DNA from: Nipponacmea schrenckii
Taxonomy: Eukaryota; Mollusca; Gastropoda; Lottiidae
Length of the DNA stretch: 64,000 nt
Reading direction: 5' to 3'
Assembly: GCA_030562195.1 (NCBI GenBank)
Contig: JAUJPP010000002.1
Span: forward strand, 4,836,001-4,900,000
Shown here: positions 8,266 to 45,260 of the stretch, one piece after another
Position numbering within the stretch: the stretch's first letter is position 1
How the letters are laid out: each line of letters starts with the position of its first letter
Notes under the pieces: model-generated
What the model saw: the letters and a program-made list of their open reading frames with translations, nothing else
What the model was told of the DNA's origin: nothing
Databases searched by the model: none
Position numbers and translations under genes: made by a program

Positions 8266-8426
8266 GGGTTTGCATAAAACAAAAAATAAAGCCAAATTTG
8301 ATAAAACATAAATCAGGAAAAAACGCCTATAATACTCCTACTTATTATTAATACAGTAGGTCTGCGTAAACACTAACTAAATCTATACATGTATTCACTG
8401 TATATACTGACACTAGCCTATACAGT
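8266..8426. other. short unassigned spacer
   Basis: AT-rich spacer between the 240-bp array and the LINE tail; no ORF or structure seen. Confidence 0.5.
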
Positions 8427-9541: not shown

Positions 9542-9651
9542 CAGGATATATGGCTGTCTCCCCGTGCGGGTGTAAGAAAACATTCATTTGAATCGTGTAG
9601 GCGACAGTACTTCTCGTTAAAACTGAGTTCTGAAACCACTTTTTTAGGGTG

Positions 9652-9733
9652 GTGAATGGCTCAGTGGTTAGCGAGTTGGACTGTCGTCTGCTAGGCGACT
9701 AGGTGCCGTGGGTTCGAATCCCGATGGTGCGAG
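9652..9733 (+). repeat. tRNA-like head, array copy 1
   Basis: Begins TGAATGGCTCAGTGG. It has a D-arm-like region, an anticodon-arm-like hairpin (GTCG...CGAC) and a T-arm with GGTTCGAATCC. This copy lacks one C in the CCCGAT(C)GGT stretch found in the other copies. Probably a SINE promoter, not a functional tRNA. Confidence 0.6.
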
Positions 9734-9933
9734 GAAATAAAAATTAGGTCTGATTCCTAGGCCCGTGCTTTCCCGGAGCTACGAGATAGTAGTTTCCACC
9801 CCTCTATCTAAATCTGCCAGTGCCAGGATATATGGCTGTCTCCCCGTGCGGGTGTAAGAAAACATTCATTTGAATCGTGTAGGCGACAGTACTTCTCGTT
9901 AAAACTGAGTTCTGAAACCATTTTTTTAGGGTG

Positions 9934-10016
9934 GTGAATGGCTCAGTGGTTAGCGAGTTGGACTGTCGTCTGCTAGGCGACTAGGTGCCGTGGGTTCGAA
10001 TCCCGATCGGTGCGAG
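9934..10016 (+). repeat. tRNA-like head, array copy 2
   Basis: Same A-box/B-box structure as copy 1, with the longer CCCGATCGGT ending. Confidence 0.6.
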
Positions 10017-10216
10017 GAAATAAAAATTAGGTCTGATTCCTAGGCCCGTGCTTTCCCGGAGCTACGAGATAGTAGTTTCCACCCCTCTATCTAAATCTGC
10101 CAGTGCCAGGATATATGGCTGTCTCCCCGTGCGGGTGTAAGAAAACATTCATTTGAATCGTGTAGGCGACAGTACTTCTCGTTAAAACTGAGTTCTGAAA
10201 CCACTTTTTTAGGGTG

Positions 10217-10299
10217 GTGAATGGCTCAGTGGTTAGCGAGTTGGACTGTCGTCTGCTAGGCGACTAGGTGCCGTGGGTTCGAATCCCGATCGGTGCGAG
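10217..10299 (+). repeat. tRNA-like head, array copy 3
   Basis: Same structure as copy 2. Confidence 0.6.
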
Positions 10300-10499
10300 G
10301 AAATAAAAATTAGGTCTGATTCCTAGGCCCGTGCTTTCCCGGAGCTACGAGATAGTAGTTTCCACCCCTCTATCTAAATCTGCCAGTGCCAGGATATATG
10401 GCTGTCTCCCCGTGCGGGTGTAAGAAAACATTCATTTGAATCGTGTAGGCGACAGTACTTCTCGTTAAAACTGAGTTCTGAAACCACTTTTTTAGGGTG

Positions 10500-10582
10500 G
10501 TGAATGGCTCAGTGGTTAGCGAGTTGGACTGTCGTCTGCTAGGCGACTAGGTGCCGTGGGTTCGAATCCCGATCGGTGCGAG
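10500..10582 (+). repeat. tRNA-like head, array copy 4
   Basis: Same structure as copy 2. Confidence 0.6.
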
Positions 10583-10782
10583 GAAATAAAAATTAGGTCT
10601 GATTCCTAGGCCCGTGCTTTCCCGGAGCTACGAGATAGTAGTTTCCACCCCTCTATCTAAATCTGCCAGTGCCAGGATATATGGCTGTCCCCCCGTGCGG
10701 GTGTAAGAAAACATTCATTTGAATCGTGTAGGCGACAGTACTTCTCGTTAAAACTGAGTTCTGAAACCACTTTTTTAGGGTG

Positions 10783-10865
10783 GTGAATGCCTCAGTGGTT
10801 AGCGAGTTGGACTGTCGTCTGCTAGGCGACTAGGTGCCGTGGGTTCGAATCCCGATCGGTGCGAG
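10783..10865 (+). repeat. tRNA-like head, array copy 5
   Basis: Same structure, with a G-to-C change in the A-box region (AATGCCTCAG). The unit around it is cut off at 10941. Confidence 0.6.
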
Positions 10866-12315
10866 GAAATAAAAATTAGGTCTGATTCCTAGGCCCGTGC
10901 TTTCCCGGAGCTACGAGATAGTAGTTTCCACCCCTCTATCGAAACTTTTTATGTGTAGCATTTTTATGCTTAACTTTATGTGTAAACATATTGTTTTGTT
11001 TTATGTCCTTGTCCCTTATCTTACATGTTATTCATAATTTTGTCACGTCCACTCTCACGTCCGTCCCTTCACAGTATTCAAGTCTGTCCAAATATCATAT
11101 AGTCCGTTCGTCACTTACTCATTCCAGTCCGTCTGTTAACTTATGAGTATATTTATATCACTCGAAATCTCATGGCTGATATCAGTATTATATCTGAAAT
11201 GCCAAGGTTTAGGCTATCCTAATAAAAGAAGAGATGTTCCTAACTTATCAAAATCTAATAACTACAGCATATACTGTATTACCAGTTGATAGGTGATATG
11301 ATGATAATTTTTAAAAAATTAAAAAAAAAAAAACTCGACTTCCGGTTTAGCCTCAATGACGTAATTACGTAACTTCTCACTTCCGGTCAGAGATAGAATT
11401 TCCGGTTTTGTTTTATTTGATAATAGAAATCATTCTAAGATCAACTGTAGATTTAGAATTTCTGTACCTTTTACCAGGTTGTCTGCAAACTCATCCGAGA
11501 ATCGCAAAAAAAAAAAAAATAGAGCCGTCGGAACGGTACTGAGCAGTATGGTGGCCCACGAGTCTAATAGCAGAATTATATAAACTTCTTGTGTTTCAGA
11601 ATGCAAATTAACATTTTTTTTTTTTAAATTTCATTTCAAAATAATTTTCATTCTAATTTCATTTTTTTTTAATCTATTCATGTAAAAATTAACATTTTTT
11701 TTTATTTATTTAACATTTCATCTTTTTTTTTTTAAATTAAATAAAAAGAAAAAAGAAAAACAATTTCATCGAGCCCAGTGATACAATAGTGTCTTGACTA
11801 TCCAGTCTTTGATAGTCTTGATTATTCAGTCCTTGTCAATAGCCCATAGTGCTTAAGTCTGGAGAATCGAGTCTACGCCCAACATTTATCAAAACTGAAA
11901 ATTACACAATTTAAAGGTAAGATATTTCAAAACATTACTCCTATGAACTAGAATTAGACCTGTGATCATTTAACATCTAGCACGGAGAAACCCATGGGCA
12001 TAACACTTGGTACTGTCACTGAAAAAATATTATTCCTTTCTTGAATTCTTCATTCATTCTATGCCATACAGCTGATCTACACACACTAGTGGACGGAGTA
12101 GGCCTACTGTACTAGTACTAGTCTTGTATGGGTTATAGTCAAAAGGTCCCCATGCCGAAAGTTCCCTAAAGATGAAGTCAAGGCGTCTCCGAAGCAAAAG
12201 TCAAAAGGTCCAAAGCACAAGTCAAAAGGCCCCCAGAAAAAATATATAGGCCTAGTCTTGATTTATTTCATCATTTTATTGATAATTGATTTTCGTTGGC
12301 CATTTCAGTTCTTCC

Positions 12316-15927: not shown

Positions 15928-16018
15928 AGTAGTAATAGAACTTACAGATATCCGGCACCCCTCCGCTTCGCTCCGCTCCGCTCCGAGCTACCGGATATCT
16001 GTAAGTTCTATTACTACT
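15928..16018. repeat. left terminal palindrome (hairpin) of the element
   Basis: A perfect 28-bp inverted repeat (15928-15955 and 15991-16018; starts AGTAGTAATAG, ends CCGG at the loop) around a 35-nt loop made largely of CCGCT/CGCTC pentamers. It starts exactly where the flanking repeat is interrupted. The outer base pairs and the Rep-independent gene set do not match any standard short TIR. The design resembles hairpin ends of parvoviruses more than the long simple TIRs of typical Polintons. Confidence 0.85.
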
Positions 16019-16056
16019 ATTTGCCCACCCGCCCTCCCTTTTTAAATAACCAAAAA

Positions 16057-16496
16057 ATGTCTTTAATAAACATTCACTCCCCTACAACTTATTTCGGATC
16101 AGGAGACATTCAAAAATCTCTAACTAAACTTCCCGGTTTTCCATGGGCTAAATATAAAGGTGAGAACATCTTCCAGGTCATAATTACACTGGTCCGGGAA
16201 CTAGGTTAGATTTACGATTGGATGAAAATGATAATCCAAAACCAGGTGAAGAACCTGTTAATAGAGTTGATGCTGCTGCACTTAAACACGACAAACTATA
16301 CAGAAATGAAGACTTACAATTTCGACACGAAGCAGATAAACAAATGATTAAAGAATTAGAATCCATTTCAAATCCTACTTTTAGAGAAAAGGTTGAAAGA
16401 GCATTAATCATAAGATTATTAAAATCAAAAATGAAATTAGGTATGGGATTAGCAGATGAAATTCATAAAGAATTCAGAAAAACTAAAAACTTTTAA
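16057..16496 (+). pseudogene. PLA2-domain protein (parvovirus VP1-like), left arm, frameshifted
   Basis: The N-terminal part (from MSLINIH at 16057) and the C-terminal part (16218-16496) are in different frames because one A is missing near 16162 compared with the right arm. The DNA between keeps the calcium-loop region (YTGPGT) and the catalytic HD dyad (within AALKHDKLY), the signature of the secreted-PLA2-like domain of parvovirus VP1 N-termini. In parvoviruses that domain breaches the endosomal membrane during entry; here the role is inferred. The C-terminal 90 residues are a charged helix-rich tail. It ends just before the integrase. Confidence 0.75.
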
Positions 16497-16499
16497 AAA

Positions 16500-17208
16500 G
16501 TGAAAGTATTTGCCAAAGACGATATATGGTCTGCAGATTTAATTAATATGCCCCCAGAAAGAGGTTATAAATATTGCTTAACAGTTATAGATTTATATAC
16601 AAGATACGCTTGGGTTATTCCTCTAAAAAACAAAACAGGTCTAACTGTTAAAAAAGCATTTGAAACAATAATGAAACATAGAAAACCCAAAAAGTTATGG
16701 GTAGATCAAGGAACAGAATTTTATAATAAAAATATGAAATCTCTAGGGTTTGAAATTTACAGTACATATAACGAAGGTAAAGCTGTAGTTATTGAGAGAT
16801 TTGAAAAACAAATTATTCAAAAAGTTCACAGAATTGAATTCTCAAAAATGGCTTAAAATATTACCTATTGTTGTCGATGAATATAATAATAAAATTCATT
16901 CATCTATAAAAGTTACTCCTACAGAAGCTTCAAAAAATCCAGATATTATAAAATCAATTAACACACAAAACAATTTTGAAAATGAGAATTTAAATATTAA
17001 ACGCAAATTTAAAGTTGGAGATAGAGTTCGTATTTATAAATATAAAAGTAAATTCGAAAAAGGTTATGTTGGATATTGGACGAATGAAATCTTTATTATT
17101 GATAAAGTTAATAAAACTTCACCACCAACTTACAGTTTAGTAGATTTACACGGTGAAGAAATCTTGGGCAGAGTTTATCAAAACGAACTTCAAAAAACTG
17201 ATTTCTAA
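16500..17208 (+). pseudogene. DDE integrase (Polinton type), left arm, frameshifted
   Basis: Retroviral-type integrase core: IWSADLINMP (first Asp), KLWVDQGTEF (second Asp) and VIERF (Glu), then YNNKIHSSIKVTPTEA and an SH3-like C-terminal region (KVGDRVRIYK ... FEKGYVGYW). This is the profile of the F54H12.3/Maverick integrase. Shortly after the catalytic Glu the frame shifts: the first ORF runs 16500-16856 and the second 16792-17208, and the right arm reads straight through. The 5' end abuts the PLA2 protein; a stop separates them here, but on the right arm the two are in one frame. No N-terminal HHCC zinc domain is seen. Confidence 0.85.
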
Positions 17209-17211
17209 AAA

Positions 17212-17652
17212 ATGATTACATTCGAAGAATTCTTACAAAAATACGGAACAGATACTACCACAAATTTTCAATTAATCAGATGGGCAGAAGAATTAAACAT
17301 AAAACCTTTTTACTACTGTATGCGTGATGAAATATCATCTCTTAAAAATAAAACAAAATTCTATGCTATATCTAATATCCATACTTCAGATCAAAAAGGC
17401 GTCCATCATTCTGCTTTATTCAAAGGGGATTCGATGTATTTTTTCGATTCGTATGGATTAGATCCAACTAAAGAAATAATCGATTTGAATTGTGGTCCGA
17501 TCAAATGTTCTACTTTTCAAATTCAAAAACCAGGAGATAAATTTTGTGGACAACTTTCACTTTGGGTTTTATATCAATTAAGTTTAGGTAAACCATTTGA
17601 ACAAATAGTATTAAATCTTTGTTTAAAAAAATGGCAAATAAATTTGGTCTAG
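17212..17652 (+). CDS. adenain-like cysteine protease, left arm, intact
   Basis: 146 residues starting MITFEEFLQKYG three bases after the integrase stop. The catalytic triad of the adenovirus-protease (Ulp1-like) fold is visible: His65/66 in GVHHSAL, Asp79 in FFDSYG, Cys112 in FCGQLSLW. Family members mature virion proteins; Polintons and adintoviruses encode one. It is somewhat shorter than adenain (about 200 aa) but complete in these motifs. The last codons overlap the start of the fibre gene in another frame. This is the only complete copy; the right-arm copy lost the His/Asp segment. Confidence 0.85.
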   Translation: MITFEEFLQKYGTDTTTNFQLIRWAEELNIKPFYYCMRDEISSLKNKTKFYAISNIHTSDQKGVHHSALFKGDSMYFFDSYGLDPTKEIIDLNCGPIKCSTFQIQKPGDKFCGQLSLWVLYQLSLGKPFEQIVLNLCLKKWQINLV

Positions 17653-18361
17653 GAAACTTAAAGAATGAAGTTCCTACATTAACGCTTAGTAAATTCAAAC
17701 CATATTTTGTAGATCAAACTGGAGACACACTTCAAGGTGATATAGATATGAATAATTTCAAAATAACTAATTTAAAATTTCCTCAACATAAAAAAGATGC
17801 AATAAATAAAGCTTATTTAACTCAAACAACTAAAAGTTTACATCAAAAAATAACTGTATTAGATAAAGATAGTAAAAACCAATTAGAAAACCATCAAAAA
17901 CTTTTAGATTCACATCATAAAAAACTAGAAAGTTATCAACAACAATTAGCTAATATAGTCGATAAAACTCAGTTGGATAGAATAAATTTATTAATATCAC
18001 AACTAGACGAAAAAATTACAAAACAAAAATCAGATATTAAACAACTGATAGGTAACATTAAACCAGGTATAAATGAGGAAAGATTGAAACAAGAATTATA
18101 TAATCTTGAAACGAAACTAAATGATGATAATGAACTAACAGAAATTAAAACCTATATTCAACAACAATTAGTTAATGTGGTTGATAAATCTCAATTACAA
18201 AATTTAAATTTATTAATATCTCAACTAGACGATAAAATTACAAAGCAAAAATTAGATATTAAACAACTGACAAGTAACATTAAACCAGGTATAAGCGAAG
18301 AAAAATTAAAACAAGAATTAATTAATCTAGAGACGAAACTAAATGATAACAATGAACTAAC
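17631..18361 (+). pseudogene. fibre-like coiled-coil protein, left arm, 5' part
   Basis: The open frame runs from 17619, but the ATG at 17631 (MANKFGLG) is as likely a start. Near the N-terminus (residues 34-52 counted from 17619) is TGDTLQGDIDMNNFKITNL followed by P...DAINKAYL, a pattern seen in phage tail-fibre shafts (D-M-Q-G-x-L-D-M-...-K-I-x-N-L ... DA-x-K-Y). Then come helical repeats of 74 aa (QQL-N-VDK-QL ... NIKPGI-EE-LKQEL), first at about residues 108-181. I infer an elongated trimeric or dimeric fibre. The gene is split at 18361 by the LINE; it resumes at 22621. Confidence 0.7.
18349..18361. repeat. target-site duplication of the LINE, left copy
   Basis: ACAATGAACTAAC, repeated at 22621-22633 directly after the poly(A). 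The undisturbed sequence is seen in sister repeats of the fibre gene. Confidence 0.85.
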
Positions 18362-18689
18362 TATAATTGTTAAAAGATAATCTTGGATTTTTGAAATCTG
18401 TTTTAATACAGATTAAATTAGACCATAAAATATGCTTTTTCAGGGAGATACATTATCGACTCCACCAGTAATTGTTATTCCATTCTTCCTGCTTCTTGTT
18501 TTCAAGAGCAACTATTAATGTGTAAATTATGTCAAGGATAGCTTTATATCTCTTTCTTTTCTTTATCTTATGTTCTTTCCCTATATTTTCTTTAAATTCA
18601 AATCTATTACCTTTGTATATGAGCCAAATTATTTTAAGCACCGACCATCTCACTCACACACATGATAACGAAACCACATATATAATATT

Positions 18690-21600
18690 ATGTCCATAAA
18701 AATATGTAGCTTCAACGCTCGTGGACTCAGAAATAATCATAAAAGAGCAGAAATCTTTACATGGCTAAAACAGACCAAATCTGATATTACTTTTCTACAA
18801 GAAACACATTCAGTACCTAGTGATGAAGACAAATGGTCAAATGAATGGGGTAATACTGCCTATTTTTCTCACTTAACTAACAACAGTTCTGGGGTAGCAA
18901 TTTTATTTCATAACGCCAAATTTCAAGAGATTGAACTATTACAAGAAATACCAGGTAGATATCTATCTTTAAAATTAACTAAAGATGATAGCCCACTTGT
19001 TATATCAAATGTATACGGGCCAAATATAGATAATCCAGATTTTTTTGAAAAAATCTTTTCAAAACTTTCAAACCATGAAACTTCCCCTTTCATTATAGGA
19101 GGTGATTTCAATTTTATAATGGACTTTGAATTAGATAAATTTGGGGGGCAACAAAAAACCAACGAAAAATCTAGGAAAACAATAATTCAATATATGGACT
19201 TACTGAATCTAAATGATGTTTACCGAACATTACATCCCTCTAAAAAGTGTTACACTTGGAAAAGAAATAAACCTATTATCTGTTCAAGATTGGACATGTT
19301 TTTTGCAACAAGTGATATTACCAATAAGATTACAGTATGTGATAGCCAACATGGTTATCGATCAGACCACAGCCTAATTTACCTTAAATTTAATCTAGAT
19401 AAACACAAAAAGGGGCCAGGATTCTTTAAAATAAGTCAATCATTACTTTTAGACTCAGAGTATATCGAAAATATTCGAAAACTGATCAAAGATTGCAAAG
19501 AAAAGTACCTCAATTGTGACCCACAAACTTTATGGGAATTAATTCAGTTAGATATACGAGGAGAAACTATCCAATATTCAAGTCGAAAAAAGAAAAGCGA
19601 CCTTAAAATTGAAAATGAACTGGAAGCAAAACAAAAACTCATTTTACAACGACAACCCATATCTTTCAAAGATTATAACGAAATCCAACATATCCAAATA
19701 AAACTAGAAGAATTAAATCAGCGCAAATTGGCAGGAGTTATGATGAGGGCGCGGGCAAAAAATCTTGTAGATCCTGAAAACTGCAGCAAATTTTACTTGA
19801 ATCTTGAATTGCGAAATAGCGAAAAAAAGATAATTTCTACTCTTTATAATAAATCTGATAACATTATAACCAATCCAAATGAAATCTTGCAAGAAGTCAA
19901 AATATTTTACGAAAACCTTTACGACTCTAAAACAATAATTGATAATGACTATGAACAACAAATAGATTATTTCTTTAAACAGTGTGAAGAAAACATTCCT
20001 AAGCTAACTGATACTGATCGATTCATCTGTGAAGGTTTAATAACAGATATAGAATGCAGAGAAGTTATAAAATCATTTAAAAATGGCAAATGTCCAGGAA
20101 GTAGTGGTATTTGTATTGAATTCTATAAAATTTTCTGGAAAGAAATAGGTCCTTTGGTTCTGAATTCTTTTAATGATTCTTTCAATAAAAATCAATTAAG
20201 TATTTCACAAAGACATGGAATTATATCATTGTTACCAAAATCAGACAAAGACACAAAATATATTAAAAACTGGCGACCTATAAGTCTTTTAAATTGTGAT
20301 TATAAAATATTAACTAAAGTAATAGCCAACAGAATTAAAAAAATTCTTAATACCATCATACATGAAGACCAGAAAGGCTTCATTAAAGGACGATACATTG
20401 GTGAAAACCTAAGAGAACTTTTTGATATAATAGATTATTTAGAAGAAAATAATGAAGAAGCAATGTTATTCCAAATTGATTTTCAAAAAGCTTTCGACTC
20501 TTTGCAATGGAACTTTATCGATAAAACAATTGATTTCTTTGGCTTTGGAAAAATGCTTAAAAGATGGATAAATATATTTTACACTAACATAACAAGTAGC
20601 GTTCTAAACAATGGATGGGCATCAAACCCTTTAGCAATCCACAGGGGAGTCAGACAGGGTTGCCCTCTATCGCCGTATATATTCATACTATGCGCAGAAA
20701 TACTAGCATCCGTTTTGAGAAATAATCCACTATATAAAGGCATACAAATTAATAACTCGACTAAAAAGATTTCACAATTTGCAGATGATACAACCCTGTT
20801 ATTAGACACTAAATTAACCACTTTGAAAACGGTTTTGAAAATACTTGACAATTTTGGCAAAATTAGTGGTCTAAAACCAAACTTAGAAAAATGCGAATTA
20901 GCTAGAATTGGGAGTATCACAAATCAAAATTTTCCATATGAAATTCCCAACAACATACGGCTCATAACAGATGTAATAAAAATTTTAGGTATATATATTC
21001 CAGTGAACAATAGACTACAAGACATCATTAAACTGAACTACGACAAAAAATTGGTAAAAATAAAAAACACATTAAATTTATTTAAAGGAAAAATTAAAAC
21101 TCTCAGAGGTAAAATAAGCATTATTAAATCATTAGCTCTTCCAAAAATTCTATACCAAATATCGATTTTACCAAATCCTCCGAAAGAATACCTAAAGGAA
21201 CTTGACCGGACTTTCTTTCAATTTATATGGGAAAATAAACCCGCAAAAATAAAACGAGAAATCTTGTGTTCTCCAATAGATAGTGGAGGGCTGAATGCTC
21301 CAGATATTTTCAATTTTACAAATGCAATAAAAATCTCATGGTCACATAAGTACTTCTCTTCAGCGAAAACTCATGTTTGGAAACATAGTATAAACAAACT
21401 TTTAAAAATAGATGATAAAATCAGTCCCTTTCAACTTAATCTCAATAGGAAAGACATAGAAAAATTAGGGATAAGAAACACATTCATCGAAGAAATACTT
21501 ATTGCTTATTCTAAAATAAACTACTGCAATAACATATCTAAGGATAGCATTATTTGGTATAATTCTAATATTAAAGTGAATAAAAAAGTTATCTTCTATA

Positions 21601-22385
21601 AAAAATGGTTCGACAATAATATCTATAGAGTGTCAGACTTATTAGATGAATCGAATAATTTCCTCTTGTACGAGGATTTTTGCAAAAAATTTCATTATCT
21701 TAAAGTAGACTTCGTGACATATCTAGGTTTAATAACTGCTATTAAAAAACGGAAAATACCGGAAAAAGAATCACCAAATGTTTATAGTTGTAAAGAGGCA
21801 TACACGAAATTACGAAAACCACTTAACGAGTCCGTTAAATTTGGAGAAAATAAATGGGTGAATCTCATCTGCGAACACGAGACTCAATTCTATTTTCGAA
21901 AAATTAAACAGATTACTAACAGCGTCAACCTACAAAACTTTCAATTCAAACTACTACACAAAATTTTGCCAAACAATTCTTTTCTGCATAAGATAAAATA
22001 TATTACCTCCCCTCTGTGTACTCTATGTGATAAAGAAATAGACAGCTTGGAACATTACCTGTTTAACTGTAAAAATAGCCAGTCATTTCTAAAAGAATTA
22101 ATTTCGCTTTTAAATCAAAATGTTGAACACAAAATCAAACTGGACCTGTCTAGTGTGATATTTAATGCACTTGAAAAACAAAACTCCTCTATAGAGTATA
22201 TTCTTCTATATGCGAAATACTATATACACTGTTGTAAATATAAATCTCGTCAGCCGAACCTAGGACAATTTTTAGAAAAATTAAACAATCAAGAACTTGT
22301 AGAAAACGAAGCTGCTCTAATCAACAATTGTATGGAAAAACACAATACGAAATGGTCAATAATAAAAACTGTTACACAAAATTAG
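18690..22385 (+). CDS. LINE ORF2: APE endonuclease + reverse transcriptase
   Basis: 1231 residues, uninterrupted. The N-terminal APE-type endonuclease has FNARGL near residue 8, FLQETHS near 35-41, GGDFNF near 137 and SDHSLIYL near 225. The reverse transcriptase has LPKSDKDTKYIKNWRPISLLN, FQIDFQKAFDSLQW (Asp), RGVRQGCPLSPY and the catalytic FADDTTLL. The C-terminus carries a zinc-knuckle pattern C-x2-C-x(8)-H-x(4)-C (LCTLCDKEIDSLEHYLFNC). The RT block wording (RPISLLN-DYKIL-KV-ANR, FI-GR-I-EN) is that of the L1/Tx1 clade. It nicks the target and reverse-transcribes its own RNA. All catalytic motifs look intact, so it may be active or recently active. Confidence 0.93.
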   Translation: MSIKICSFNARGLRNNHKRAEIFTWLKQTKSDITFLQETHSVPSDEDKWSNEWGNTAYFSHLTNNSSGVAILFHNAKFQEIELLQEIPGRYLSLKLTKDDSPLVISNVYGPNIDNPDFFEKIFSKLSNHETSPFIIGGDFNFIMDFELDKFGGQQKTNEKSRKTIIQYMDLLNLNDVYRTLHPSKKCYTWKRNKPIICSRLDMFFATSDITNKITVCDSQHGYRSDHSLIYLKFNLDKHKKGPGFFKISQSLLLDSEYIENIRKLIKDCKEKYLNCDPQTLWELIQLDIRGETIQYSSRKKKSDLKIENELEAKQKLILQRQPISFKDYNEIQHIQIKLEELNQRKLAGVMMRARAKNLVDPENCSKFYLNLELRNSEKKIISTLYNKSDNIITNPNEILQEVKIFYENLYDSKTIIDNDYEQQIDYFFKQCEENIPKLTDTDRFICEGLITDIECREVIKSFKNGKCPGSSGICIEFYKIFWKEIGPLVLNSFNDSFNKNQLSISQRHGIISLLPKSDKDTKYIKNWRPISLLNCDYKILTKVIANRIKKILNTIIHEDQKGFIKGRYIGENLRELFDIIDYLEENNEEAMLFQIDFQKAFDSLQWNFIDKTIDFFGFGKMLKRWINIFYTNITSSVLNNGWASNPLAIHRGVRQGCPLSPYIFILCAEILASVLRNNPLYKGIQINNSTKKISQFADDTTLLLDTKLTTLKTVLKILDNFGKISGLKPNLEKCELARIGSITNQNFPYEIPNNIRLITDVIKILGIYIPVNNRLQDIIKLNYDKKLVKIKNTLNLFKGKIKTLRGKISIIKSLALPKILYQISILPNPPKEYLKELDRTFFQFIWENKPAKIKREILCSPIDSGGLNAPDIFNFTNAIKISWSHKYFSSAKTHVWKHSINKLLKIDDKISPFQLNLNRKDIEKLGIRNTFIEEILIAYSKINYCNNISKDSIIWYNSNIKVNKKVIFYKKWFDNNIYRVSDLLDESNNFLLYEDFCKKFHYLKVDFVTYLGLITAIKKRKIPEKESPNVYSCKEAYTKLRKPLNESVKFGENKWVNLICEHETQFYFRKIKQITNSVNLQNFQFKLLHKILPNNSFLHKIKYITSPLCTLCDKEIDSLEHYLFNCKNSQSFLKELISLLNQNVEHKIKLDLSSVIFNALEKQNSSIEYILLYAKYYIHCCKYKSRQPNLGQFLEKLNNQELVENEAALINNCMEKHNTKWSIIKTVTQN

Positions 22386-22568
22386 GCTCAAACTTTCTAC
22401 ACCTTACATCTACTCATCCTATCTTCTTTCTATTCTCAATCTATCTTATTCTTATCTTTCTTCTGTACAAAACAAATATGTCTTTCATTATCTTTATATT
22501 CAGATCAAACCTATGTACTAAATTATGATATGTCTGTGTAAAAACTTTGCAATGTACTTAAAATTGAT

Positions 22569-22584
22569 TTGAATAAAGTAATTG

Positions 22585-22620
<36 letters not shown>
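22569..22620 (+). terminator. polyadenylation signal and poly(A) tail of the LINE
   Basis: GAATAAAG followed about 10 bases later by a run of about 34 A, ending at the 3' target-site duplication. Confidence 0.85.
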
Positions 22621-22622
<2 letters not shown>

Positions 22623-23160
22623 AATGAACTAACAGAAATTAAAACCTATATCGATCAGCAATTGGCTAATGTGGTTGATAAAACTCGGTTACAGAATTTA
22701 ATTTCATTAATATCCAAATTAGATGATAGAATTACAAAAGAGAAAATAGATTTGAAACAACTAATAGATAATATTAAACCAGGTATAAGCGAAGAAAGAC
22801 TGAAACTAGAAATGTCTAAATTTGAAACAAATAATAACAACGAGCTAACAGAAATTAAAACCTATATTCAACAACAATTAGTTAATGTAGCCGATAAATC
22901 TAAATTTAAATTTATTAATGACCCAATTAGATGAAAATGTAAATCAACTAATAGCTAATATTAAACCAGGTATAAGCGAAGAAAAATTAAAACAAGAATT
23001 ATCTGATTTAGAAACTAAACTAACAGAAATTAAAACCTATATCGAACAGCAATTGGCTAATGTAGTAGACAAAGCACAGTTAGAGAGATTAAGATCATTA
23101 ATATTTCAATTAGATCGAAAACTTGAGACAATAGACATAAAAAATGAAAAAATGAGCTCC
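22621..23160 (+). pseudogene. fibre-like coiled-coil protein, left arm, 3' part
   Basis: Continuation of the fibre repeats after the LINE: NELTEIKTYI-QQLANVVDK units with NIKPGISEE-LK linkers. A frameshift lies near 22915 (the frame switches from one ending KFINDPIR to one starting with TQLDENV). At about 23155 the fibre is fused by deletion to the middle of the next gene; the fibre's C-terminal domain seen in the right arm (FPFKLKIKTF...) is missing here. Confidence 0.75.
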
Positions 23161-23385
23161 CATATTTATAGAAGAAAATGATGAAAATAGAGATTACTTT
23201 GCACGTTTTAAAATAGAAAGTATAACAGAACTGATACCACGGTCAAAATATTTTCCTAAAAATTTTAATTATTTACCAAAATTAGAGATATCAATTATTA
23301 TAGAATATATTGGTTATAAAAACGAAGACAATGAAATATTTTGGTCTACGAAAAACATTGGTTTATCACAAATACAGTTAATTTA
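23155..23385 (+). pseudogene. unknown 137-aa protein, left arm, 5' truncated
   Basis: Codes for about 75 C-terminal residues (EENDENRDYFARFKIES ... IFWSTKNIGLSQIQLI) that match the full copy at 25734-26147. The N-terminal half was lost in the deletion that fused it to the fibre gene. Confidence 0.7.
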
Positions 23386-23395
23386 ATTCTTAAAA

Positions 23396-23881
23396 ATGAA
23401 TACCGAAGAGTTAAACACACAGAATTTACAAGATGTTATGATGCGTAAACAAAAAGAGTTAGAAGGAGAATTCAATCATTACAAAAAGTTAACAAAATGT
23501 TGGAGTAGGATAGACACTACTTTTAAAACTGTAAGTGTTATATCAGCTTGTCTTATAGCAACAGCAACTACTATAACAGCAAGTATTTCTCTTCCAATAT
23601 TTATTCCAACTATCTTAGGAGCTCTTACAGCTATTCAAACATCTTCATGTGGTTTAATTACTATTGGGTTTACCTCTAAAAAGAAATTATATTACAAAAC
23701 CATATCAAATTTAATAAGAACATATTTAGATAAATTATTTATTTTTTTCGAAAGAAGCAAATCTGATAAAATAATTACCATAGAAGAACTCGAAGAATTT
23801 AATGAAATATTCGATGAATTGTTAACAAAAATTGAATCCTTAAAAATAGAACATAAAAAATTGAAAAAGAAGCATGACTAA
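23396..23881 (+). CDS. small two-segment membrane protein, left arm
   Basis: 161 residues starting MNTEELNTQN. A hydrophilic, probably coiled-coil N-terminus (to about residue 43) is followed by two adjacent hydrophobic segments (about 44-66, VSVISACLIATATTITASISLPIF; about 67-87, PTILGALTAIQTSSCGLITIGF) and a long charged helical C-terminus ending KKLKKKHD. Topology suggests a hairpin membrane anchor. I do not recognise a family; position in the cluster suggests a virion or membrane-active component. The stop overlaps the start of the next gene (ATGACTAA). Intact, unlike the right-arm copy. Confidence 0.7.
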   Translation: MNTEELNTQNLQDVMMRKQKELEGEFNHYKKLTKCWSRIDTTFKTVSVISACLIATATTITASISLPIFIPTILGALTAIQTSSCGLITIGFTSKKKLYYKTISNLIRTYLDKLFIFFERSKSDKIITIEELEEFNEIFDELLTKIESLKIEHKKLKKKHD

Positions 23882-24543
23882 ATTAATTAAAAAAAAAAGA
23901 ACCTAATGCTGTAAAACCGAAGAAAAAAATTGACAATGAATTATTTGAACATGTGGTTTCTGATATAATTGAAGAGTTTAATACTTTTAATGGACAAATT
24001 GAAATCGATGGAAAAATTTTTGAAGATGGTGAATTCAAACAAAATATGAATTTATCTTTCTTTAATGTTCAAATGATTTCTAGAGTTGTCAATAATATGA
24101 GTGAAAAATCAGATAGTTCAGATTGGTATTTTACTGGTCATATAATATATCGTAAAGATGATTTCAAACCAATCAAAAGATCAAATATAGGAAAAGGAAC
24201 TCAATTGTTATTTACAATCAATGAATACGTTGGAAAATATTGTTATATTCCAACTGACGGAGCTTGTTTTATCAAGTGTGTAAATTATGTTTTGAAACGA
24301 GATTTAACAAACGAATTTAATAAATTTATTTATTCCTATTCAAAACATAACAGAAAGGGAATTATGACTCAAGCTCGAATCGGAGAATTCAATGAAAAAA
24401 TTGAAACTTCGTTCCAAATTTATAATCCTAAAGATAGAACTTTATATCCTAGAAAAAGAAACACTCCATCAGAATGGGTTTTGTATTTACACAATAATCA
24501 TTTCTGTTTGATAAAAAGAGATAACAAACGTTTAGAAAAAAAA
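23874..24543 (+). pseudogene. N-terminal part of probable protein-primed DNA polymerase B, left arm
   Basis: The likely start is the ATG at 23874 overlapping the previous stop; one extra base in the A-run at about 23888-23897 shifts the frame, after which it is open from about 23900 into the gap. Residues include YCYIPTDGACFIKCVNYV, GIMTQARIGEF and YLHNNHFCLIKR. This C...H arrangement recalls the OTU-like N-terminal region that precedes the polymerase in many invertebrate Polinton PolB proteins. The exonuclease and polymerase motifs would lie in the gap. Assignment is from pattern memory, not from a visible polymerase motif. Confidence 0.55.
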
Positions 24544-25043
24544 NNNNNNNNNNNNNNNNNNNNNNNNNNNNNNNNNNNNNNNNNNNNNNNNNNNNNNNNN
24601 NNNNNNNNNNNNNNNNNNNNNNNNNNNNNNNNNNNNNNNNNNNNNNNNNNNNNNNNNNNNNNNNNNNNNNNNNNNNNNNNNNNNNNNNNNNNNNNNNNNN
24701 NNNNNNNNNNNNNNNNNNNNNNNNNNNNNNNNNNNNNNNNNNNNNNNNNNNNNNNNNNNNNNNNNNNNNNNNNNNNNNNNNNNNNNNNNNNNNNNNNNNN
24801 NNNNNNNNNNNNNNNNNNNNNNNNNNNNNNNNNNNNNNNNNNNNNNNNNNNNNNNNNNNNNNNNNNNNNNNNNNNNNNNNNNNNNNNNNNNNNNNNNNNN
24901 NNNNNNNNNNNNNNNNNNNNNNNNNNNNNNNNNNNNNNNNNNNNNNNNNNNNNNNNNNNNNNNNNNNNNNNNNNNNNNNNNNNNNNNNNNNNNNNNNNNN
25001 NNNNNNNNNNNNNNNNNNNNNNNNNNNNNNNNNNNNNNNNNNN
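24544..25043. other. assembly gap (500 N) at the centre of the inverted arms
   Basis: Placeholder of unknown length at the junction of the two arms. It can hide the polymerase, capsid and ATPase genes, or mark a false join between two separate elements. Confidence 0.99.
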
Positions 25044-25723
25044 ACAATTCATCGAATATTTCATTAAATTCTTCGAGTTCTTCTATGGTAATTATTTTAT
25101 CAGATTTGCTTCTTTCGAAAAAAATAAATAATTTATCTAAATATGTTCTTATTAAATTTGATATGGTTTTGTACGGAAGCCCATATGGTACCTTCGAACT
25201 TAGAACTTACGACTTAATACTTACGACTTAGAACTTACGACGTATAGACAGAATAAGGGACAGAAAAAAAACAGTTTGGAATATGACACATTTACTTCAG
25301 TAAAACGACCAAAATTACAAAATATCTTACACGAAGCCTAACTTCTACATCGTAAGTTCTAAGTCGTAAGTATTAAGTCGTAAGTTCTAAGTTCGAAGGT
25401 ACCATATGGGCTTCCGTAGTTTTGTAATATAATTTCTTTTTAGAGGTAAACCCAATAGTAATTAAACCACATGAAGATGTTTGAATAGCTGTAAGAGCTC
25501 CTAGGATAGTTGGAATAAATATTGGAAGAGAAATACTTGCTGTTATAGTAGTTACTGTTGCTATAAGACAAGCTGATATAACACTTACAGTTTTAAAAGT
25601 AGTGTCTATCTTACTCCAACATTTTGTTAACTTTTTGTAATGATTGAATTCTCCTTCTAACTCTTTTTGTTTACGCATCATAACATCTTGTAAATTCTGT
25701 ATGTTTAACTCTTCGGTACTCAT
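25044..25723 (-). pseudogene. two-segment membrane protein, right arm, interrupted
   Basis: Same protein as 23396-23881 (start MSTEELNIQN at 25723). The N-terminal and hydrophobic segments are at 25425-25723, and the C-terminal part continues at 25044-25171. A 247-bp MITE (25172-25418) splits the gene just after KKKLYYKT. The 3' end enters the gap. Confidence 0.8.
25172..25418. mobile_element. 247-bp MITE with long TIRs and 6-bp TSD
   Basis: Terminal inverted repeats of about 69 bp (TACGGAAGCCCATATGG... / mirrored) contain direct sub-repeats of the form AACTTACGACTTA. It is flanked by GTTTTG at 25166-25171 and 25419-25424; the left arm has the single-copy empty site. The core (about 110 bp) is non-coding. 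The 6-bp duplication does not fit Tc1/mariner (TA), hAT (8) or piggyBac (TTAA). Confidence 0.85.
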
Positions 25724-25733
25724 TTTTTAAGAA

Positions 25734-26147
25734 TTAAATTAACTGTATTTGTGATAAACCAATGTTTTTCGTAGACCAAAATATTTCATTGTCTTCGTTT
25801 TTATAACCAATATATTCTATAATAATTGATATCTCTAATTGAGGTATATAATGAACATTTTTAGGTAAATGATTTGACCGTGGCAATCCTGTTATACTTT
25901 CTATTTTAAAACGTGCAAAGTAATCTACATTATCGTTATCTTCCATCATAAGTACGGGAGGTGTTATAAATGCTTTATTTACTTGAGATTTATGAACATC
26001 AAATGAAGTAAAAATATTACCAAAATCAAAATAACATCTTATGTGTTCAAATTCTTTCCATTTCAAAAATGTATATTTTTTTCTTCCATCGTTATGTAAT
26101 TTTTTATCATTTATCAAATTTACAATTTGTGGTTTTTCATTTGTCAT
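25734..26147 (-). CDS. unknown 137-aa protein, right arm, full length
   Basis: Starts MTNEKPQIVNLI and ends LSQIQLI. It has a mixed alpha/beta look, no signal peptide and no membrane segment. Not recognised. It lies between the fibre and membrane-protein genes in both arms, and the last 70 residues are well conserved between arms, so it is a genuine gene of the element. The start lies directly after the fibre stop region, with almost no spacer, as in compact viral operon-like blocks. Confidence 0.65.
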   Translation of the reverse strand: MTNEKPQIVNLINDKKLHNDGRKKYTFLKWKEFEHIRCYFDFGNIFTSFDVHKSQVNKAFITPPVLMMEDNDNVDYFARFKIESITGLPRSNHLPKNVHYIPQLEISIIIEYIGYKNEDNEIFWSTKNIGLSQIQLI

Positions 26148-26530
26148 TTATATCAAATCCAGGAAATATATACCACACTCAGTGATAACAAATGGTTCTT
26201 TTTTAAGTAAGTCATTTATAAAAGAATCTTGATCCGTAAGGTTTATTTTAATTTCCACTCCATCGACAAAATCTGTATTTAGTGGTACATTATCCATATT
26301 ATAAGGAGGTATGAAAGATACATGAATCTCTTTAATTTTTCCACCCTTGGTTATTGTGGAAATTGTTCTTTTAAATAGTCTAATATCATAATTAAATGTT
26401 ATACCATTTCGATCCATTTGTTTATACACAAATGTTTTTATTTTTAATTTAAAAGGAAACAATATAGTAATGACTGCTTCAGTTGAAGACGTAATTTCAA
26501 ATATTGAAAAGTTTGATGTAATTTGGATAT
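26148..26530 (-). pseudogene. fibre C-terminal domain, right arm
   Basis: The C-terminal domain runs 26463 to 26148 (FPFKLKIKTFVYKQMDRNG ... CGIYFLDLI). It is preceded in frame by the segment EITSS-EAVITI (26464-26530) that also appears at 27274-27330. This gives the true end of the fibre protein: a non-repetitive domain of about 110 residues after the coiled-coil shaft, a plausible knob. Confidence 0.65.
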
Positions 26531-26884
26531 TAATGAAATAAAATTCTGTAACCGAGTTTTATCAACCACATTAACTAATTGTTGTTGAACATAAGTTTTA
26601 ATTTCTGTTAGTTTACTGTCATCATTAAGTTTCGTCTCTAGATTAGAACTTACGATTTATTTTATTTTATTTTAATTTCCACTCCATCGACAAAATCTGT
26701 ATTTAGTGGTACATTATCCATATTATAAGGAGGTATGAAAGATACATGAATCTCTTTAATTTTTCCACCCTTGGTTATTGTGGAAATTGTTCTTTTAAAT
26801 AGTCTAATATCATAATTAAATGTTATACCATTTCGATCCATTTGTTTATACACAAATGTTTTTATTTTTAATTTAAAAGGAAAC
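26531..26884 (-). pseudogene. duplicated fragments of the fibre gene, right arm
   Basis: 26531-26645 repeats a shaft segment found at about 27983-28105. 26665-26884 repeats the C-terminal domain segment of 26243-26463. They are joined by a short TTTTATTTTATTTTA stretch. This is a local rearrangement by duplication with deletion. Confidence 0.75.
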
Positions 26885-26994
26885 AATAATAATAATAATA
26901 ATAATAAACTCTTTATTTTACATGGGTCAGAATTAGGCCCAATACACAAGGACATGGTCCTGTCTCACATTCAGCCCATGGGGCAATACATTGG

Positions 26995-27026
<32 letters not shown>

Positions 27027-27230
27027 AAAAAAATCGAAAATACATAATATCTCAATATACAATTCGTCTGAAATACTAAAAATACACAAGTACATGTGTA
27101 TCAAATGGACAGAGATATGTTCCGGCGATCAAGTACATGACCACGAAATAAATATACAATACTCCACGTACAATTTGTTTAAAAATACACAAGTACATGT
27201 GCATGAATGGACAGATTTTCAACCTACAAT
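26885..27230 (-). mobile_element. 3' end of a retroposon with (ATT)n tail
   Basis: Starts with (AAT)n on the plus strand, then AAACTCTTTATTTTACATGGGTC, a CCCATGGGGCAATACATTGG segment, a long A-run (26995-27032), and about 1.5 units of a repeat with ACACAAGTACATGTG that also forms the array at 60301-60760. Read on the minus strand it ends in an (ATT)n tail, as in many LINE/SINE 3' ends. It interrupts the fibre gene. Confidence 0.6.
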
Positions 27231-28618
27231 TAGTTTATAAAATGGATGTAATATATAGTAATATATGTAATATATAGTAATGACTGCTACAGTTGAAGAC
27301 GTAATTTCAAATATTGAAAAGTTTGATGTAATTTTATGATTTGGATATGCGTATTTCTTCGCAAACATAGATTTAAATCGAGATAGGTCAACTAATCTTC
27401 CTTCATATGTTGCAACAAATCCATACTTTTCTAAAATACCATCATTAAAGGGTAAACTAAAACAATAAGGCTTTTCTATCGGTAGTAATCTTTTATTTAT
27501 TTTTTTAAACATCTTTTCACTTGACTCAATTTTTTTATCTAATTCAGATATGGATGATTTTAATCTCTCTAACTCCGCTTTGTCTACTACATTAGCTAAT
27601 TGCTGTTCGATATAGGTTTTAATTTCTGTTAGTTCATTGTTATCATTAAGTTTAGTTTCTAAATCAGATAATTCTTGTTTTAATATTTCTTCGCTTATAC
27701 CTGGTTTGATATTAGCTATTAGTTGTTTTACATTTGATTTTTGTTTGGTAATTTTATCATCTAATTGGGTTATTAATAAATTTAAATTTTGTAATTGAGT
27801 TTTATCGGCTACACTAACTAATTGTTGTTGAATATAGGTTTTAATTTCTGTTAGCTCGTTGTTATTATTTGTTTCTAATTTAGACAATTCTTGTTTCAGT
27901 CTCTCTTCGCTTATACCTGGTTTAATATTATCTATTAGTTGTTTCAAATCTATTTTCTCTTTTGTAATTCTATCATCTAATTTGGATATTAATGAAATAA
28001 AATTCTGTAACCGAGTTTTATCAACCACATTAACTAATTGTTGTTGAACATAAGTTTTAATTTCTGTTAGTTTACTGTCATCATTAAGTTTCGTCTCTAG
28101 ATTAATTAATTCTTGTTTTAATTTTTCTTCGCTTATACCTGGTTTAATGTTACTTGTCAGTTGTTTAATATCTAATTTTTGCTTTGTAATTTTATCGTCT
28201 AGTTGAGATATTAATAAATTTAAATTTGTAATTGTGAGTTATCAACCACATTAACTAATTGTTGTTGAATATAGGTTTTAATTTCTGTTAGTTCATTATC
28301 ATCATTTAGTTTCGTTTCAAGATTAGCTAATTCTTGTTTTAATTTTTCTTTGCTTATACCTGGTTTAATGTTACCTATCAGTTGTTTAATATCTGATTTT
28401 TGTTTTGTAATTTTTTCGTCTCGTTGTGATATTAATAAATTTATTCTGTCCAACTGAGTTTTATCAACTATATTAGCTAATTGTTGTTGATAACTTTCTA
28501 GTTTTTTATGATGTGAGTTTAAAAGTTTTTGATGGTTTTCTAATTGGTTTTTACTATCTTTATCTAATACAGTTATTTTTTGATGTAAACTTTTAGTTGT
28601 TTGAGTTAAATAACCTTT
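27231..28618 (-). pseudogene. fibre-like coiled-coil protein, right arm shaft
   Basis: Contains five to six 70-74-aa helical repeats (TEIKTYI-QQL-NVVDK-QL ... NIKPGISEE-LKQEL). The main open frame is 27219-28028, a second 28220-28453, with frameshifts near 28030 and 28225. The 5' end is lost: a deletion joins the protease end to the QTTKSL region of the fibre. After the shaft comes a non-repeat region (KKINKRLLPIEKPYCFSLPF ... YEGRLVDLSRF) not present on the left arm. Confidence 0.78.
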
Positions 28619-28935
28619 ATACTATTTGTTCAAATGGTTTACCTAAACTTAATTGATATAAAACCCAAAGTGAAAGTTGTCCACAAAATTTATCTCCTGG
28701 TTTTTGAATTTGAAAAGTAGAACATTTTATTGGACCATAATTCAAATCAATAATTTCCTGAAGTATGGATATTAGTTATAGCATAGAATTTTGTTTTATT
28801 TTTTAGAGATGATATTTCATCACGCATATAATAGTAAAAAGGTTTTATGTTTAATTCTTCTGCCCATTTGATTAATTGAAAATTTGTGGTAGTATCTGTT
28901 CCGTATTTTTGTAAGAATTCTTTAAAAGTAATCAT
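28618..28935 (-). pseudogene. adenain-like protease, right arm, internal deletion
   Basis: Starts MITFKEFLQKYG like the left copy, but about 30 residues holding the catalytic His and Asp are deleted after NIHTS. The Cys-containing part (GDKFCGQLSLW) survives in another frame, and the end is fused to the fibre remnant. Inactive. Confidence 0.82.
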
Positions 28936-28943
28936 TTTAAAAA

Positions 28944-29663
28944 TCAGTTTTTTGAAGTTCGTTTTGATAAAAATCTACCCAAGATTTCTTCACCATGTAA
29001 ATCTACTAAACTGTAAGTTGGTGGTGAAGTTTCATTAACTTTATCAATAATAAAGATTTCATTCGTCCAATATCCAACATAACCTTTTTCGAATTTACTT
29101 TTATATTTATAAATACGAACTCGATCTCCAACTTTAAATTTGAGTTTGATATTTAAATTCCCTTTTTCAAAATTGCTTTGTGTGTTAATTGATTTTATAA
29201 TATCTGGATTATTTGAAGCTTCTGTAGGAGTAACTTTTATAGATGAATGAATTTTATTATTATATTCATCGACAACAATAGGTAATATTTTAAGCCATTT
29301 TTGAGAATTCAATTCTGTGAACTTTTTGAATAATTTGTTTTTTAGAGTTCTGTTAAATCTCTCAATTACTAAAGCTTTACCTTCGTTATATGTACTGTAA
29401 ATTTCAAACCCTAAAGATTTCATATTTTTATTATAAAACTCTGTTCCTTGATCTACCCATAACTTTGTGGGTTTTCTATGTTTCATTAATGTTTCAAATG
29501 CTTTTTTAACAGTTAAACCTGTTTTGTTTTTTAGAGGAATAACCCAAGCGTATCTTGTATATAAATCTATAACTGTTAAGCAATATTTATAACCTCTTTC
29601 TGGGGGCATATTAATCAAATCTGCTGACCATATATCGTCTTTGGCGAATACTTTAACTTTTAA
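28944..29663 (-). CDS. DDE integrase (Polinton type), right arm, core intact
   Basis: Forms the C-terminal 240 residues of an open frame that starts at 29924. DDE residues: Asp in WSADLINMP, Asp in LWVDQGTEF, Glu in VIERFNRTLK; then the YNNKIHSS helix and SH3-like tail. Unlike the left copy it is in frame with the tail of the PLA2 gene (KTKNFLKVKVFAK), so the two could be one polyprotein, or the join could result from a one-base change. The last residues (FLSKRTSKN) differ from the left end and look frameshifted. Integrases of this type insert the linear element genome and duplicate about 6 bp of target. Confidence 0.85.
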   Translation of the reverse strand, partial: LKVKVFAKDDIWSADLINMPPERGYKYCLTVIDLYTRYAWVIPLKNKTGLTVKKAFETLMKHRKPTKLWVDQGTEFYNKNMKSLGFEIYSTYNEGKALVIERFNRTLKNKLFKKFTELNSQKWLKILPIVVDEYNNKIHSSIKVTPTEASNNPDIIKSINTQSNFEKGNLNIKLKFKVGDRVRIYKYKSKFEKGYVGYWTNEIFIIDKVNETSPPTYSLVDLHGEEILGRFLSKRTSKN

Positions 29664-30090
29664 AAAGTTTTTAGTTTTTCTGAATTCTTTATGAATTTCA
29701 TCTGCTAATCCCAAACCCAATTTCATTTTTGATTTTAATAATCTCATGATTAACGCTCTTTCAACTTTTTCTCTAAATGTGGGATTTGGAATAGATTCTA
29801 ATTCTTTTATCATTTGTTTGTCTGCTTTGTAAGTCTTCATTTCTGTATAGTTTGTCGTGTTTAAGTGCAGCAGCATCCACTCTATTAACAGGTTCTTCAC
29901 CTGGTTTTGGATTATCATTTTCATCTAGTCGTAAATCTAACCTAGTTCCAGGACCAGTGTAATTATGACCTGGAAGATGTTTCTCACCTTTATATTTAGA
30001 CCATGGGAAACCGGGAAGTTTAGTTAGAGATTTTTGAATGTCTCCTGATCCGAAATAAGTTGTAGGGGAGTGAATGTTTATTAAAGACAT
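29664..30090 (-). pseudogene. PLA2-domain protein (parvovirus VP1-like), right arm, frameshifted
   Basis: The N-terminal part from MSLINIH (30090) stays open through the calcium loop YTGPGT and the catalytic AALKHDKLY motif. A 10-base deletion near 29834 relative to the left arm then shifts the frame; the C-terminal helix-rich tail continues in the frame of the downstream integrase. The lesion differs from the left arm's, so each arm decayed separately. In parvoviruses the domain sits at the N-terminus of the minor capsid protein; here it is a separate small protein or fused to the integrase frame. Confidence 0.76.
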
Positions 30091-30127
30091 TTTTTGGTTA
30101 TTTAAAAGGGAGGGCGGGTGGCCAAAT

Positions 30128-30208
30128 AGTAGTAATAGAGCTTACAGATATCCGGTAGCTCGGAGCGGAGCGGAGGGGTGCCGGATATCTGTAAGCTCTA
30201 TTACTACT
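30128..30208. repeat. right terminal palindrome (hairpin) of the element
   Basis: Perfect 28-bp inverted repeat (30128-30155 and 30181-30208) around a 25-nt loop that is the reverse complement of the left loop minus two pentamers. It differs from the left stem at one base pair, changed on both sides (A:T at 15940/16006, G:C at 30140/30196), so pairing is kept. Confidence 0.85.
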
Positions 30209-43182: not shown

Positions 43183-43330
43183 TTCGTCGCCGGCGACGGT
43201 CTGCAGTTCGTCGGCAAAATAAGCTCAGACGGTCCCCAGTTCGTCGCCAGTTTGTCGGCGACGGTCTGCAGACGGCCGCCAGTTCGTCGGCGACGGTCTG
43301 CAGACGGTCGCCAGTTCGTTGCCGAATATT
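43183..43330. repeat. GC-rich minisatellite in the left end of the Tc1-type element
   Basis: Repeats of GTCGCCAGTTCGTCGGCGACGGTCTGCAGA-like units, GC-rich in an AT-rich region. Largely self-complementary (CTGCAG, CCGGCGACGG), so it could fold. A matching array in inverse orientation lies at 45112-45260. Confidence 0.85.
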
Positions 43331-45111: not shown

Positions 45112-45260
45112 GAAGTGGCGACGAACTGGCGACCGTCTGCAGACGAACTGGCGACGAACTGGCGACCGTCTGCAGACGAACTGGCGACGAACTGGCGACC
45201 GTCGCCAGTTCGTCTGCAGACGGTCGCCAGTTCGTCGGCAAATGTTCTGCCGACCATCTG
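45112..45260. repeat. GC-rich minisatellite in the right end of the Tc1-type element
   Basis: CGACGAACTGGCGACCGTCTGCAGA units, four to five copies, partly in both orientations (the sequence turns around at about 45198). All frames are open over the array, which produces meaningless ORFs. Confidence 0.85.

Follow-up and report, generated by a model that had tools for sequence, protein, structure and literature searches.

The genome of the gastropod Nipponacmea schrenckii (Mollusca, Lottiidae) carries a lineage of Polinton/Maverick elements whose ends are palindromes of ≈91 bp, able to fold into hairpins, and this palindrome is the integrase-cut terminus and true end of the element. We started from a 64,000-nucleotide stretch, hereafter the window (GenBank assembly GCA_030562195.1, contig JAUJPP010000002.1, forward-strand positions 4,836,001 to 4,900,000), in which an earlier note had described positions 15,928 to 30,208 as a Polinton-like element with parvovirus-style hairpin ends. 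The terminal features of this region are as follows.

15928..16018, + strand: left terminal hairpin (arms 15928-15955 and 15991-16018, loop 15956-15990; GAAC arm type; the same terminus occurs in other copies)
30128..30208, - strand: right terminal hairpin (outer arm 30181-30208, loop 30156-30180, inner arm 30128-30155; GAGC arm type)
15928..16078, + strand: ≈150-bp terminal repeat (hairpin plus ≈60 bp), common to both kinds of family end

The left palindrome spans 91 bp, with perfect 28-bp arms (29 counting a flanking T-A pair) around a GC-rich 35-nt loop, and the right spans 81 bp, with perfect 28-bp arms around a 25-nt loop; the arms and coordinates given in the earlier note are exact. When the whole window was scanned for perfect stems (14 bp or longer, arms separated by up to 120 nt), both ranked just behind the single 38-bp stem (two alternative pairings) of a tandem array. 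Folded as single-stranded DNA, the left hairpin has an energy of -27.7 kcal/mol (z -9.8) and the right one of -29.4 kcal/mol (z -11.6), with 0 of 200 shuffled sequences equally stable in either case, and a chance origin of the hairpins was rejected. The start codon of a phospholipase A2 (PLA2) domain lies ≈40 bp inward of the palindrome. The genes directly inside are PLA2, integrase (PF00665), and protease, followed by coiled-coil frames fitting a fiber protein, in agreement with the integrase, protease, and fiber set previously placed there.

A search of the whole assembly (399 Mb, 1093 contigs) gave 633 first-look candidates when hairpin and inner repeat were queried together and 670 when the inner repeat was queried by itself; the best 40 of each were scored. 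All 25 ends displayed with a 30-nt flank begin at the (AGT)2 end of the arm, so that elements read AGTAGT...ACTACT from end to end. Our parsed set comprises 52 distinct termini, found by the hairpin query, by the inner repeat alone, or fetched for pairing. Both arms are present in 47 of these and the outer arm is absent in five. Among the 20 termini found by the inner repeat alone, 15 have both arms (including L049 and L050, which come from one duplicated site); the five that lack the outer arm (L043, L045, L046, L053, and L054) are broken inside the loop in four cases and inside the inner arm in one. When the 47 two-armed termini were compared with one another by BLAST over their outer flanks (40-100 nt; E 1e-3), no in-register similarity was found, and the element therefore stops at the hairpin. 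The search returned seven matches among five termini, which were inverted, far out of register or, in one case, slightly offset (20 nt at 90%, with a 3-nt offset, more than 60 nt from the hairpin); we read these as a shared host repeat.

Integration leaves its mark at the same position. Eleven pairs of facing ends, chosen among the matches listed, were compared, and six are enclosed by perfect 6-bp target duplications:

L028: AATGTA
L029: TAAGAA
C7:4.82M: GGAATG
C3:1.02M: GGCGAC
C7:34.4M: GTGGTT
C2:5.74M: GAAGAT

The C7:34.4M copy (34.43-34.46 Mb) measures ≈30 kb and the C2 copy (5.738-5.753 Mb) 14.3 kb. The five pairs that lack a duplication are the window, L026/L041, C10:3.64M, C9:15.89M, and C12:16.58M. 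Pairing ends by position alone was rejected, the first four of these facing each other without one. With duplications in six pairs and 47 termini that share no in-register flank, the Polinton lineage with integrase and hairpin ends that the earlier note had proposed holds. When the hairpin was traced through the assembly, as that note had suggested, one hairpin per end with a target duplication was found in the six pairs; the gene set was pieced together from several copies. Vertebrate Mavericks are likewise recognized by (AGT)2...(ACT)2 ends and 6-bp target duplications (PMC8097293).

The arms vary among copies and remain complementary. The 47 two-armed termini fall into 11 distinct arm pairs, and at five stem positions more than one Watson-Crick pair is seen. 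In this distinct set, 96.4% of cells are paired, compared with 89.1% (sd 1.8, maximum 94.5) after 2000 re-deals of the inner arms, a statistic that is not a probability. Because stem variants change on both sides, the palindrome is kept as such. Seven of the 11 arm pairs (seven termini) contain one to three mismatches, which is what decay since insertion would produce; the remaining four, accounting for 40 termini, are perfect. Wherever a pair has a target duplication (six cases), its two ends share an arm type, with one private base change each in the C7:4.82M, C3, and C2 pairs, and the duplication is absent from all four pairs of unlike arm type.

The loops vary in length and hardly at all in orientation. 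Apart from a single loop of 34 nt, they measure 20, 25, 30, 35, 40, or 45 nt and differ by multiples of a 5-nt unit, and the two loops of the C7:34.4M insertion differ in length. All 47 parsed loops are unflipped. An exact pattern for the inner junction of the GAGC type matched 52 places in the usual orientation, of which three are duplicates on C3, and one place in the flipped orientation. This one, L075 (C12:17357951-17358550), is the only terminus seen with a reversed loop, and reading its sequence confirmed it. A first flip pattern, with five matches, was dropped as a count, as it can match a normal outer arm beside an AAAT flank; in one such false match, on C6, PLA2 lies on the other side, and the longer GAGC pattern leaves the single flipped case. 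Both the rare flip and the termini that lack an arm may have arisen once the element was integrated, through instability of the palindrome.

The family's gene content was assembled from several loci. Inward from one end, L026 encodes a PLA2-integrase, a protease, a coiled-coil frame, an uncharacterized protein, and pieces of DNA polymerase B. Its 404-amino-acid frame fuses a parvovirus-type PLA2 (PF08398, 1.6e-9) to a retrovirus-type integrase (PF00665, 3.5e-11); the profile of the PLA2-integrase alignment (A1) matches a solved integrase structure (1.4e-11). A 31-row alignment shows the PLA2 HDxxY motif with invariant H95 and Y99 and a nearly invariant D96. In the YTGPG loop, G63 does not vary and the other residues hold in the majority of rows, and the integrase has invariant D178, D234, and E264; we take these to be the motifs that characterize the two enzymes. 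The polymerase is of the organellar/viral type-B family (PF03175, 2.3e-13). For the long coiled-coil frame the best family, FliJ, falls below the cut-off, and we take it as the fiber. From the other end, L023 encodes a small protein, a double-jelly-roll major capsid protein (PF21738, 1.8e-9), an uncharacterized protein, and an A32-like packaging ATPase (PF04665, 3.2e-8), an order found also in L030 and partly in L041. The protease has no Pfam match, whereas its profile matches adenain (E 0.0012) and its AlphaFold model (pLDDT 90) matches the adenovirus 2 protease (Foldseek E 5.2e-4); a Wolbachia deubiquitinase takes rank 1, and the protease of African swine fever virus (ASFV) is also placed ahead of the adenovirus one. 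A penton candidate has no Pfam match, and its model (pLDDT 33) is too poor for use. The family thus has the integrase, type-B polymerase, adenain-like protease, A32-like ATPase, double-jelly-roll capsid protein, and end features of Polintons/Mavericks.

Relatives of the PLA2-integrase in public protein data number 1292, with both Pfam domains in 106 of the 120 listed; the capsid protein relatives that bear a name are all from the limpet Lottia gigantea. Scans of IMG/VR gave no loci for the PLA2-integrase as a single protein, nor for the capsid protein as a single protein or as an alignment (A2), and the PLA2-integrase alignment A1 gave one locus, with a 27%-identical integrase (L042). In three further copies (L034, L035, and L039), ≈1.1 kb of capsid-side end sequence lies ahead of PLA2, which would lengthen the terminal repeat if the far end is of the capsid type; in these copies the ends seem to have been copied onto each other.

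The window copy appears to be built differently from what the earlier note had supposed. Its interior features are as follows.

16057..16496, + strand: frame-broken PLA2 part of the PLA2-integrase (PF08398 is matched in L026 and in the right-hand copy of the window)
16497..17208, + strand: retrovirus-type integrase, two overlapping frames (PF00665, 4e-12)
17212..17652, + strand: adenain-like cysteine protease (evidence as for the family protease above)
17631..18361, + strand: predicted fiber protein, first part, with 222-bp coiled-coil repeats (putative function; no family above the cut-off in L026)
18362..22619, + strand: long interspersed nuclear element (LINE; RVT_1, endonuclease) in the fiber region, foreign to the element (14-bp target duplication)
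22620..23386, + strand: fiber region resumed past the LINE, frame-broken (mirror repeats, reading frames)
23396..23881, + strand: protein without assigned function, with a hydrophobic segment and coiled coil by eye (no Pfam family above the cut-off)
23887..24543, + strand: stretch at the position of the polymerase N terminus, cut by the gap (OTU-like motif by eye only, no Pfam support; in L026 the polymerase follows this same set of genes)
24544..25043, no strand: assembly gap of 500 N, from the sequence
25044..25726, - strand: mirror copy of the gene for the uncharacterized protein (counterpart of 23396..23881), carrying a 247-bp fold-back insert at 25172-25418
27219..28621, - strand: mirror copy of the fiber region, frame-broken (reading frames, inverted repeats)
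28747..28974, - strand: mirror copy of the protease gene, truncated (reading frames)
28944..29924, - strand: mirror copy of the integrase, single 326-amino-acid frame (PF00665, 5.3e-12, or 5e-12 rounded)
29773..30090, - strand: mirror copy of the PLA2 domain (PF08398, 1.6e-8)

The interior is a mirror image, with inverted repeats of up to 476 nt at 95%, and the three best mirrored blocks of the two halves are 93.9-96.2% identical. The outer flanks do not match (TAGACT and GACACT), and the arm types are unlike (GAAC and GAGC). A tblastn search of the whole window (E 1e-3) found no capsid protein, ATPase, polymerase exonuclease or core, or two further proteins, whereas the integrase control matched both halves. 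Because of the mirrored parts, the 500-N gap, the unlike flanks and arm types, and the missing capsid, ATPase, and polymerase-core matches, what the window contains is two half-copies, probably joined by scaffolding, that belong to a Polinton/Maverick family of adintovirus-like proviruses. That the span from 15928 to 30208 is one element with a full gene set, as first supposed, is accordingly not supported.

How might such ends be copied? The explanation that we favor, and as a whole consider likely, is a linear element with palindromic, integrase-cut ends of ≈91 bp that is copied end to end by its own polymerase, with the hairpin as a signal. The free element would be linear double-stranded DNA, and its type-B polymerase would copy it from one end to the other. 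Strand separation at the end would let the hairpin form, which could then act as a recognition signal for the polymerase, the integrase, or packaging. The arms may be kept matched, with the loop left unturned, by selection or by template switching within the hairpin. Several points weigh against this explanation. The family is known here from integrated genomic copies, from which the free form is deduced; the gene set was pieced together from L026, L041, L023, and L030 and not read from one complete copy with a target duplication, and L026/L041, which has the best gene order, shows unlike arms and no matching duplication. The C12:16.58M pair is of one arm type and lacks a duplication, its nearest facing end (L081) being degenerate and the next (L082) unmatched. 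The pairs compared were drawn from among the matches listed, and the related copies that enter the arm statistic are not independent.

Other explanations concern either what the hairpin and the window unit are or how the ends replicate. That the hairpin is an independent miniature inverted-repeat transposable element (MITE) inserted at both places is extremely improbable. Short hairpin-ended units do occur, of 2.1 kb (L028) and 2.7 kb (C3:1.02M), but the 2.1-kb unit contains PLA2-integrase sequence, and target duplications enclose the hairpins as a pair, which refutes this origin for the six pairs that have them. All 40 scored hairpin matches extend into the inner repeat, one up to base 122 of 126, although ranking on the whole query disfavors lone hairpins. 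The earlier note had held that its reading would fail if copies ran on beyond the hairpin, which was not seen, or if the hairpin stood alone as a MITE, which was likewise not seen, lone hairpins not having been counted genome-wide. As for the 14-kb unit in the window, L028 and L029 have PLA2-side sequence at both ends together with a target duplication, as one natural inverted-repeat element would; the differing flanks and arm types, the 93.9-96.2% identity of the best mirrored blocks, and the gap between the halves make this an unlikely account of the window.

Replication through fold-back or closed ends, as the earlier note suggested, is possible. In a rolling-hairpin scheme like that of parvoviruses, the 3' end would fold back and prime synthesis, and the end would be restored by nicking at the boundary of the inner arm; the nickase would have to be the integrase, since the inner arm carries the terminal motif in inverted form. 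Three findings fit: complementarity is retained among the arm variants, the two ends of an insertion agree in arm type, and one flipped loop exists. In parvovirus copying, however, the folded end is nicked and refilled so that the loop turns round, and both orientations would be expected often, as opposed to the fixed orientation described above (47 of 47 loops, and 52 junctions against one). The family moreover has a type-B polymerase, and a genome search for Parvo_NS1 (PF01057; 11 of 11 candidates scored) found two places, neither with the family hairpin or terminal repeat in its 3.4-kb locus. A nickase of unrecognized type is possible among the frames without a family. With no Parvo_NS1 beside the family hairpin and almost no flip/flop, we judge parvovirus-type replication, which the earlier note had raised as possible, to be unsupported and doubtful. 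Covalently closed, poxvirus-like hairpin ends that are opened ahead of integration could explain why the outer arm is missing from five of the 20 termini that were found by the inner repeat alone; in four of these the break falls within the loop, as would follow from the joining of an opened hairpin. Yet both arms are retained in the other 15, no resolvase was recognized among the frames (several of which have no family), and palindromes are prone to deletion after integration, a simpler cause of truncation; closed ends are therefore quite improbable. We give a similarly low chance to a scenario in which a Polinton took over a parvovirus end as a block (hairpin plus adjacent PLA2), joined that PLA2 and its integrase into one protein, and now replicates its ends through fold-back and its own polymerase, with the integrase cutting at (AGT)2. 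The palindrome presents this motif at both arm boundaries, and in ambisense densoviruses the PLA2-bearing capsid gene begins beside the terminal hairpin. If true, such capture would make the end mechanism a chimera and would be the bidnavirus history in reverse.

The two Parvo_NS1 places, L073 (C12:355742) and L074 (C12:369093), have open frames of 238 and 376 amino acids and are probably endogenous parvovirus relics. L074 holds another palindrome, unrelated to the family hairpin, with 21-bp arms at 2626-2702, which may be the parvovirus's own end.

Comparison with known systems sets the family apart mainly by its ends. Like vertebrate Mavericks/Polintons, it has 6-bp target duplications and (AGT)2...(ACT)2 among its end motifs (PMC8097293); unlike them, its outer 91 bp are palindromic and the repeat common to both kinds of end is only ≈150 bp, and the main text of that study does not mention a hairpin or palindrome. 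Adintoviruses, defined by PolB, an rve integrase, and adenovirus-like virion genes (PMC11071296) and sized 13.3-14.6 kb (PMC8363768), share these genes with the family, whose C2 copy falls in that range; the main texts of both papers do not mention a hairpin. Two adintovirus traits, an OTU-like PolB N terminus and an integrase chromodomain, have no Pfam match in the family (no OTU family at window 23887-24540 up to E 1, and no chromodomain family in the 404-amino-acid protein up to E 0.5). A PLA2 related to that of parvovirus capsids is already known from Polintons (PMC4642659, PMC3671162), whereas in this family it lies in one frame with the integrase and beside the terminal hairpin, no literature search having been aimed at the fusion. 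Bidnaviruses combine parvovirus parts with a Polinton polymerase, and their terminal repeats form no hairpins (PMC4061559); they are parvoviruses that gained Polinton parts, whereas this family is a Polinton with parvovirus-like parts. A literature search for Polintons with hairpin or palindromic ends, which was not exhaustive, found none. These comparisons suggest a hairpin-ended Polinton lineage whose end structure is unreported for the group as far as searched.

Terminal hairpins and PLA2 are also features of parvoviruses, whose hairpin loops flip and flop as in adeno-associated virus. The present family has the terminal hairpins, but no NS1 was found in it, it has a double-jelly-roll capsid protein and a DNA polymerase of its own, and its loop orientation is almost fixed (52 against 1, for one arm type and exact patterns).

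Some observations concern the assembly and the rest of the window. C3 (59,252,672 bp) is exactly 2 x 29,626,336, and matches recur at that offset; it looks like one sequence entered twice, and counts on C3 are therefore doubled. The LINE, at 18348-22633, has a single frame of 1238 codons, counted from stop to stop, for its endonuclease and reverse transcriptase, and it has a poly-A tail. The 247-bp insert in the right half-copy (25172-25418) is MITE-like, with inverted ends and GTTTTG on either side. GC-rich tandem arrays occupy 43226-45240, with the 38-bp-stem inverted repeat within 45119-45237, and further tandem arrays lie at 7411-8322 (240-bp units), 9542-10944 (283-bp units), and 52704-54507 (161-bp units).

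Ideas on how Polinton end copying starts and finishes are drawn largely from adenoviruses as a model. With a lineage that ends in a co-varying hairpin, right where the integrase cuts, this process becomes testable, and a single 91-bp substrate would serve for assaying end structure, priming, and integration. The family unites parts that are usually separate, namely hairpin ends and a PLA2 like those of parvoviruses, an integrase of the retrovirus type, and the polymerase and capsid of a Polinton, and it thereby bears on the proposal that the exchange of parts between parvoviruses and Polintons makes new virus families.

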